This document shows positions 28,464 through 32,695 of a stretch of DNA of 45,024 nt, one piece after another. Both the position numbers and the translations under genes were made by a program. Every line of letters begins with the position of its first letter. Position 1 is the first letter of the stretch. Source of the DNA: Opitutia bacterium (GTDB lineage: Bacteria; Verrucomicrobiota; Verrucomicrobiia; Opitutales; Opitutaceae); the NCBI GenBank assembly GCA_947467625.1, contig CANIJN010000010.1, positions 1-45,024 of the forward strand, given 5' to 3'. The notes below the pieces were generated by a model. That model saw only the letters and a program-made list of their open reading frames with translations, searched no databases and had not been told where the DNA came from.

Positions 28464-28982
28464 TTACGTCTTCCCGAGACAGCACTGCTTGTGTTTCTTG
28501 CCGCTGCCGCAGGGGCACGGGTCGTTGCGCCCGACTTTCACGGCGGCCTTGGCCGGAGCGGGACCTTGGCGAATCGGGCGCGTGAAGATCCATTGGCCGT
28601 CGATACGACGGAACTCGGACTTCTCTTCCAAGACACCCTCTTGGTTCGCTTCGGTGTAGTAGGCGGAAAACTCGACGAAGGCCGTGTCCGGTTGTTTACC
28701 CAGTTCGTGGGAGTGTACGACGAGCTTCGTCCAGCGCACGGGCGACTCTCCGGTTTCTTCGACGTAGGGCAGCTTCGCGGTAGGCGCGTAGGTGTCGTGG
28801 AGGTAGCGGTTGTCGTCGGCGACGTGAGCCGTGAAGCGCGAGCGCATGAGCTCTTCGGCGGTCGCGGCGGGACGTTGGCGCGTCAGCACCGGTTCGCAGC
28901 AGGCGTCGAAGAGTTTGCTGCTGCCGCAGGGGCAGGCTTGTCCGCGAATGGGTCGATCGAGTCCGGTGGGCGTAGTGGCCAT
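28464..28982 (-). CDS. ychJ: YchJ/UPF0225-like protein with two SEC-C motifs
   Basis: 172 residues. An N-terminal SEC-C zinc motif ([13 protein letters not shown], about 17-29) and a C-terminal one ([13 protein letters not shown], about 157-169) flank a NTF2-like central domain with the family block [23 protein letters not shown] and FVEFSAYY. This is the YchJ/UPF0225 layout; the motif is the zinc-binding tail of SecA and other proteins. Molecular function is unknown, with a ribosome- or SecA-linked role suspected for SEC-C proteins. It converges on the large receptor gene. Confidence 0.92.
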
Positions 28983-32011: not shown

Positions 32012-32266
32012 TCACGCAGTGTCGCGGCTGTGCGACGCTGGGCTCCAGAACATGCTGTCGGGGTCGAGGTAGCGGCGGTGCTCTCGAGGTTCTGGGTGTG
32101 GGTCGGTCACGGCGGCGACGTCAGGCCAGAGAATGGGCACGAGAAAATCATGCCGGGCCGCGTCCGAAGAGGGTCGGGGCCGGGTGGGCCACTCGGCGCG
32201 AAAGCGGAGCGGCGGCGGTTCAAACGAGCCTGGATTCCAGGTGGCTTCAATGGGGGGTGTTGGCAT
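32012..32266 (-). CDS. possible small protein (doubtful)
   Basis: 84 residues, MPTPPIEATWNPGSFEPPP... ending SMFWSPASHSRDTA. The composition (Trp, Phe, Pro and Arg in a varied pattern) is more protein-like than the usual antisense frames here, and no gene overlaps it. It lies just downstream of the minus-strand terminator, so it would need readthrough or its own promoter. No ribosome-binding site or family was seen. Confidence 0.3.
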   Translation of the reverse strand: MPTPPIEATWNPGSFEPPPLRFRAEWPTRPRPSSDAARHDFLVPILWPDVAAVTDPHPEPREHRRYLDPDSMFWSPASHSRDTA

Positions 32267-32307: not shown

Positions 32308-32343
32308 AAAAAAAAGCCCCCCCGGTGTGGCACCGGAGGGGCT
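32308..32343 (-). terminator. strong minus-strand intrinsic terminator/attenuator-like hairpin
   Basis: Read on the minus strand, AGCCCCTCCGGTG pairs with CACCGGGGGGGCT around CCA (13 bp, one mismatch) and runs into eight T residues. It starts 16 nt after the stop codon of the 35-codon ORF. No T-tract exists in the plus direction. Confidence 0.9.
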
Positions 32344-32359
32344 AAAGTCGTTTTGACGT

Positions 32360-32467
32360 TTAGAACCCTCTCGGCGCCTTGTTAATGGCGGATACGGATA
32401 CGACGGAGACTGCGACCACGGAGAGGTGGGCGAGCGTTGAAACGAGCGTCGTGCCGTTAATGTTCAT
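32360..32467 (-). CDS. 35-codon Val-rich peptide, possible amino-acid attenuation leader
   Basis: Minus-strand ORF from ATG 32467 to TAA 32360. The peptide begins MNINGTTLVSTLAHL, contains the Val-dense stretch SVVAVSVVSVSAIN and ends KAPRGF. Seven of 35 residues are Val, three Leu and two Ile, six Val falling within nine codons. A strong terminator follows 16 nt later, and CCGAGAGGG near the end of the ORF could pair with CCCCTCCGG of the terminator as an antiterminator. A TTGACA hexamer lies upstream (32503-32508, minus), without a good -10. This is the layout of ilv-type leader peptides, but no ilv gene follows. It could instead be an independent small membrane peptide. No ribosome-binding site is evident. 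Confidence 0.45.
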   Translation of the reverse strand: MNINGTTLVSTLAHLSVVAVSVVSVSAINKAPRGF

Positions 32468-32695
32468 GAGTCGCCGGCGAACAAGTCCAAGGAGACGCTG
32501 CGTGTCAAGTCGGTGCTGGGCGGATTCCAGTCCCGCCAATGAGTTCGGCCACGACTGGGCAGGATGCCGCGCGCGTGCACGGGTGAGACGCCCCTGCCAC
32601 GCCGACATCGGTCCAGCTGACTTCACTTTCAACGGCATCCGACCGGGGGAATCTCCTCGCAACTCGGCCCCGCGTTCGCACCGTTTGCCTCGCGC

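Follow-up and report, generated by a model that had tools for sequence, protein, structure and literature searches.

What does a valine-rich leader ORF with a terminator behind it control at a locus that no ilv gene adjoins? The question is raised by a unit at positions 32308-32508, minus strand, of the window, the whole 45,024-nt stretch of DNA analyzed here, which belongs to the draft assembly of an Opitutaceae genome (Verrucomicrobiota). Along the minus strand, a 35-codon Val-rich ORF is followed after 16 nt by a hairpin, a T8 tract, an 84-codon ORF and a convergent DUF1684 gene, and the upstream neighbor of the leader is a divergent gene that matches UxuA and TIM-barrel families (Table 1). 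Based on sequence comparison, we propose that in this unit transcription of a small-protein gene is controlled by a ribosome-mediated attenuator that senses valine, a reading to which we assign a probability of roughly 78%.

Table 1. Coordinates of the predicted features of the attenuator unit and of the gene behind it, in window positions.
Feature	Position	Strand	Basis or remark
-35 box TTGACA	32503..32508	-	sequence and conservation upstream of leaders
presumed -10 CTTGTT	32485-32480	-	17-nt spacer after -35; weak and not listed in the sequence analysis
leader ORF, 35 codons + stop	32360..32467	-	ATG at 32467, stop 32362-32360
region 2, antiterminator 5' arm	32366..32377	-	among last sense codons of leader ORF
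hairpin (putative terminator)	32343-32315	-	13 pairs including one U.G wobble
region 3, common to antiterminator and terminator	32330..32342	-	covariation of both helices
region 4, terminator 3' arm	32316..32327	-	terminator covariation
T8 tract	32308-32315	-	sequence; first T pairs in stem
84-codon gene, HDFLV small-protein family	32012..32266	-	core HDFLV at residues 39-43

The leader ORF is short, and codons for a single amino acid are clustered in it: in the peptide of the window, MNINGTTLVSTLAHLSVVAVSVVSVSAINKAPRGF, Val takes six of nine successive positions (VVAVSVVSV). The original prediction had described this ORF, its Val run and the 16 nt between its stop codon and the hairpin, and all of these are confirmed by the sequence. 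It had also described the hairpin as 13 bp with one mismatch and a T8 tract; the 13 pairs and the T8 tract stand, whereas the supposed mismatch is a U.G wobble. The 40-nt hairpin stretch has a minimum free energy (MFE) of -26.9 kcal/mol (z -5.2; as stable in 0 of 200 shuffles), and the MFE structure of the full stretch 32390-32308 contains the terminator. As had likewise been anticipated, the end of the leader ORF is predicted to pair with the terminator 5' arm: in the folding, CCGAGAGGG at the ORF end pairs with the 5' arm of the hairpin, and the antiterminator fold of 32390-32326 reaches -30.0 kcal/mol (z -5.8), with none of 200 shuffles as stable. The candidate antiterminator hence uses the 5' arm of the terminator and is placed where a ribosome at the stop codon would cover region 2, which lies 3 nt from this codon and coincides with the codons of the APRG end of the leader peptide. 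The conservation of this APRG end is probably due to an RNA constraint, since its codons would form the antiterminator RNA.

The original prediction had proposed a search of related genomes. Blastn finds one copy of the element in its own genome and matches in 30 of 95 genomes, a count that includes its own genome and one spurious match (G049, L032), which was dropped as a weak blastn match. Thirty copies of the element were aligned to build a covariance model, R1, which they match by construction; with these building copies counted, R1 matches 144 of 252 family genomes and 36 of 49 genera (E <= 0.001), and the element is in this sense conserved among the relatives. At the same threshold, 108 of the 252 genomes were unmatched, among them G005, a member of the same genus with an 89% complete assembly in 1000 contigs, and in the window's genome R1 matched the window's copy only (strict filters). 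Among 372 sampled genomes of the order, 43 match R1 at E <= 1e-6, 42 of them inside Opitutaceae. A hairpin-pattern scan of named genomes yielded 63 stretches. The titles of 61 name Opitutaceae, Opitutae/Opitutia, Verrucomicrobia/Verrucomicrobiota or genera thereof; the other two, L188 (Cytophagales) and L209 (Acetobacter), which showed neither ilvB nor the small ORF, were left out. Genera g20, g48, g13 and g9 (e.g. G027, G230-G236) carry a further IlvB class, 54-57% identical to the leader type, and show no R1 match better than about 6e-4, so that a diverged leader is possible there.

The downstream genes were classified at 142 loci from 135 genomes, a part of the 144 genomes that match R1. 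Homologues before ilv genes, which the original prediction had suggested looking for, were found before ilvB at 28 of the 142 loci and before ilvN at one, with these family assignments checked on one example each. At four loci an MFS transporter gene follows, and at five the downstream gene is cut by the contig end. The other 104 loci, the window included, carry a small ORF behind the leader, either alone (86 loci) or with an aminotransferase gene (18 loci). The description of the unit as an orphan therefore does not hold, as a conserved small-protein gene stands behind the leader at these loci. The small-ORF type was found in 24 genera and the ilvB type in 17, and the two occur together in 4 of the 135 genomes. 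At the window locus, the 84-codon gene stands in place of acetolactate synthase genes; the acetolactate synthase of this genome (contig C90; 44% identity to the leader-type IlvB), its small subunit (C83) and IlvE (C14) are all on contigs other than the window's. In genome G012, an ilvN-like gene with the ACT domain of an acetolactate synthase small subunit (L146:523-861, minus strand) is the first gene behind the leader, and no ilvB intervenes. The MFS transporter genes stand behind weaker attenuator matches (L137, L140 and L151 in genus g41, L153 in genus g6; Pfam checked on L137), and two of these genomes, G248 and G251, also carry a small-ORF unit.

Both helices were followed across the loci. 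The cmsearch set comprised 146 loci, four of which were dropped, and 139 of the other 142 are distinct; L156-L159 were dropped as spurious, with R1 E-values between 1e-5 and 5e-5, unrelated genes behind the match and no call of a leader ORF. The terminator pairs hold in 96.0% of the cells (slid controls 50-63%), with changes on both sides in 88 cells versus 34.6 in shuffles (reached in 0 of 500). The antiterminator pairs between regions 2 and 3 hold in 89.2% of the cells on the 139 distinct sequences (slid controls 46-58%), with both-side changes in 21 cells versus 5.9 in shuffles; at the second antiterminator pair, both partners are changed in L149, L134, L114 and L123. At least 9 of the 12 antiterminator pairs are present in 105 of 106 rows outside the ilvB, ilvN and MFS loci (in five of these rows the downstream gene is cut off) and in 25 of the 28 ilvB-type rows. 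Two observations count against the antiterminator: its outermost pair fails to form in 89 of 138 sequences, and the helices are weaker at the ilvN and MFS loci, with a median of 8 of 12 antiterminator pairs. The covariation of both helices across the family loci supports the attenuator-like plan that had been proposed for the unit, and together with the family-wide R1 matches it rules out a chance hairpin. The sequence and this covariation indicate a putative intrinsic terminator after the leader stop, and overall the comparative evidence that points to attenuation is strong.

We propose that, when charged tRNA-Val is ample, the ribosome would reach the leader stop and cover region 2, which would allow the terminator helix 3:4 to form and transcription to stop at the T8 tract. 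When tRNA-Val is scarce, the ribosome would stall on the Val run and leave region 2 (the GCGCCGAGAGGG codons) free to pair with region 3, and RNA polymerase would continue into the 84-codon gene. Valine is suggested as the signal by the leader codons and by the ilvB loci, and the living cell would presumably respond to it. Among the 123 leaders called, the median number of Val is 7 in both main locus classes and 6-7 across every class; 7-9 residues follow the last Val in 104 of the 123 leaders and 10 in the window. Small-ORF-type leaders contain more Ser and less Leu than ilvB-type leaders. A 4-bp hairpin, CCAC-N6-GTGG, lies within the Val codons of the window (32416-32429, minus strand) and may be a pause hairpin. 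CCAC-N6-GTGG is found in 41 and CTAC-GTAG in 4 of 86 small-ORF-type leaders; the hairpin is fully paired in 46 of these 86, compared with a permuted maximum of 41, and in 0 of 26 ilvB-type leaders. Upstream of the leader, TTGACA with at least 5 of 6 matches occurs at 114 of 123 loci (77 exact; 9.3% in shuffled upstream stretches), and in 79 of the 114 box-bearing loci it lies 34-36 nt from the ATG, a distance which suggests that the leader mRNA is nearly leaderless. The hexamer after the 17-nt spacer (112 aligned cases) is C/T-rich, with T at the second and sixth place in 76%.

The original prediction had considered, among other ideas, a small-peptide gene; this came closest, except that the gene is the downstream 84-codon ORF and not the leader. 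The family comprises 104 proteins, 58-111 residues long (median 69) and with 16% Pro, in which a single motif is conserved: [H/N]-D-[F/L/M]-L, mostly continued by V-x4-P. The motif residues D, L, V and P are present in 102, 104, 61 and 90 of the 104 proteins, respectively. As a permissive form of the motif had been used to select these proteins, a separate test chose ORFs without it, taking the first ATG ORF of at least 45 codons that starts 30-115 nt past the terminator at 114 loci without ilvB, five of which had ORFs that were too short. In this test, 100 of 109 ORFs carry [HN]D[FLM]L, compared with 0.62% of codon-shuffled ORFs; the nine others are one-letter variants (L009, L031, L085 and L096) and the five ilvN and MFS loci. 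The core codons drift synonymously (CAC 66/CAT 25, GAC 52/GAT 50, TTC 44/TTT 33), which argues for selection on the protein. An RNA-level cause of the HDFLV core (CACGACTTCCTCGTG, a possible 5-bp hairpin) was rejected, since the codons vary at wobble positions. For the small ORF, 21 pairwise comparisons among 7 species within the genus give dN/dS values of 0.18-0.70, which are only moderately below 1. The 84-residue product of the window matched no family in NCBIfam (E <= 1) or Pfam (E <= 0.1), and AlphaFold2 on a 55-sequence alignment gave no confident structure (mean pLDDT 63.8, pTM 0.15). The L185 and L212 small proteins stop right past the core (HDFLVR and HDFLVQ), indicating that the core alone can form the C-terminus.

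The original prediction had also raised a displaced leader, that is, a leftover ilvBN leader with a meaningless ORF behind it after the loss of ilvB. The same type of leader stands before ilvB at 28 loci, the ilvB and small-ORF types rarely share a genome, and some small ORFs are faintly similar to the IlvB N-terminus, all of which would fit such a relic. However, the small-ORF loci keep both helices as the ilvB loci do, and the downstream ORF belongs to a conserved family whose core is maintained over 24 genera with synonymous drift; this explanation is largely refuted, and we regard it as highly improbable.

A PLP aminotransferase gene, possibly of MocR/LysN type, follows the small ORF at 18 of 104 loci from 7 genera. 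For the L031 example, a multiple-substrate aminotransferase and a 2-aminoadipate transaminase are among the solved relatives; MocR-like models match the aminotransferase below their cutoffs. The start of the aminotransferase gene overlaps the small-ORF stop by 4 nt in 15 of the 18 loci and lies 2 nt apart in one, with no clear junction in two. Such overlaps would be expected if the small ORF only delivered ribosomes to the aminotransferase start, with the solo loci representing enzyme losses. On the other hand, a spacer does not need a conserved motif, and in the 86 of 104 loci where no aminotransferase was found within at least 451 bases past the terminator, the core is as well conserved (L 86/86, D 85/86, H or N 84/86) as in the loci with the enzyme (L 18/18, D 17/18, H or N 18/18), albeit among sequences picked by the permissive motif. 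A role purely in translation coupling therefore seems very unlikely, and the persistence of the small protein without the aminotransferase argues for a function of its own. The window's genome lacks this aminotransferase and has distant relatives only (25-31% identical). The idea that the enzyme replaces IlvE was unsupported, as all three aminotransferase genomes covered (G015, G035 and G036) also have IlvE.

With respect to the origin of the small protein, 7 of the 104 sequences can be aligned in register with the IlvB N-terminus (its first ~35 residues) if a score of at least 0 is required, a threshold that was not fixed beforehand, compared with 0 in 60 shuffled sets. By E-value, the homology to IlvB was not significant: the best HMM match over the 104 sequences had an E-value of 0.027 (6.4 bits versus a best of 5.7 in twenty-fold shuffles), and hhalign gave a probability of 1.4% and an E-value of 0.035. 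The likeness was therefore retained solely as a register result. Taken together, the control, the enzyme partner in seven genera and the partial IlvB likeness point to branched-chain amino-acid metabolism, and the best reading is that valine shortage would switch on a small protein tied to this metabolism. According to the title of PMC10065794, de novo small proteins can rescue auxotrophy of Escherichia coli. As the most likely role, we tentatively suggest that the HDFLV protein might be disordered and might regulate branched-chain amino-acid enzymes or serve them as an accessory peptide; it would be made under valine shortage, and part of it perhaps derives from the ilvB start. Still more speculatively, the valine attenuator might drive a disordered effector microprotein instead of an enzyme operon, one built from the acetolactate synthase start and an HDFLV motif resembling the KHNFLV segment of that enzyme; it could adjust branched-chain enzymes in valine shortage by binding them or their regulatory subunit, and the same family could have put this switch to renewed use for ilvB, for ilvN, for a transporter and for an aminotransferase operon.

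A product of the attenuator itself might also act in trans. In PMC7298713, peTrpL/rnTrpL of Sinorhizobium meliloti is described as such an attenuator-derived product, and a leader peptide is reported there to act in trans. Similarly, the terminated leader transcript, predicted to be about 160 nt, or the Val-rich peptide could be what matters here, with the small ORF being secondary; the window's genome has the unit without adjoining ilv genes or aminotransferase, and promoter and leader are conserved. In an alignment inspected by eye, however, no further conserved stretch was seen beyond the promoter, the leader codons and the attenuator helices, and a trans-acting product would leave the conserved HDFLV gene unexplained. 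Unlike the S. meliloti system, the window unit is marked by a conserved small ORF past the terminator, and we consider this alternative improbable compared with control of the small-protein gene in cis.

The closest known system in plan is E. coli ivbL, which controls acetolactate synthase (PMC11187965); its leader has 32 codons, twelve of them for Val and Leu, and a terminator stands after the stop. The 28 ilvB-type loci share the plan of ivbL; its target is ilvBN, whereas in the window it is a small-protein gene, and the likeness is one of plan and does not imply common descent. The ilvB-II, ilvB and ilvB-OMG RNA motifs have upstream ORFs rich in branched-chain codons and have been suggested to be attenuators; in PMC10272879, they are described with ilvB, unlike the small-protein gene of the window. 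A search of the 45-kb window against Rfam release 15 gave no match at or above the gathering score, so that a known Rfam RNA was rejected as the identity of the element; the best permissive match, ncS54, reached 24.9 bits against a cutoff of 43 and spans 32308-32412. Among the open-access literature matches listed, no title or abstract start describes the element, and no open-access paper was found that combines 'Opitutaceae' and 'leader peptide'; a term search of PMC8632094 gave no mention of Opitutus or Verrucomicrobi-. A probable valine attenuator that is absent from Rfam and spread through a single family (36 of 49 genera) would be an addition for Verrucomicrobiota, with one attenuator type standing before several different genes. 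It also exposes a conserved small protein, the function of which is directly testable, given that amino-acid metabolism is indicated both by how the gene is controlled and by the enzyme that sometimes shares its operon.

The wider neighborhood was compared at 72 loci, with ORFs chosen mechanically. The largest neighbor cluster is common to 11 of the 72 loci, and conserved neighbors were therefore rejected as a functional clue; the convergent downstream gene of the window is present at 9 of the 72 loci, the window counted, and its upstream gene was found at none of the other loci. A YchJ-like SEC-C protein is encoded at 28464-28982 of the window (minus strand), and ORFs that look similar stand behind the small-protein gene at several loci of genus g19, L011 and L057 among them.
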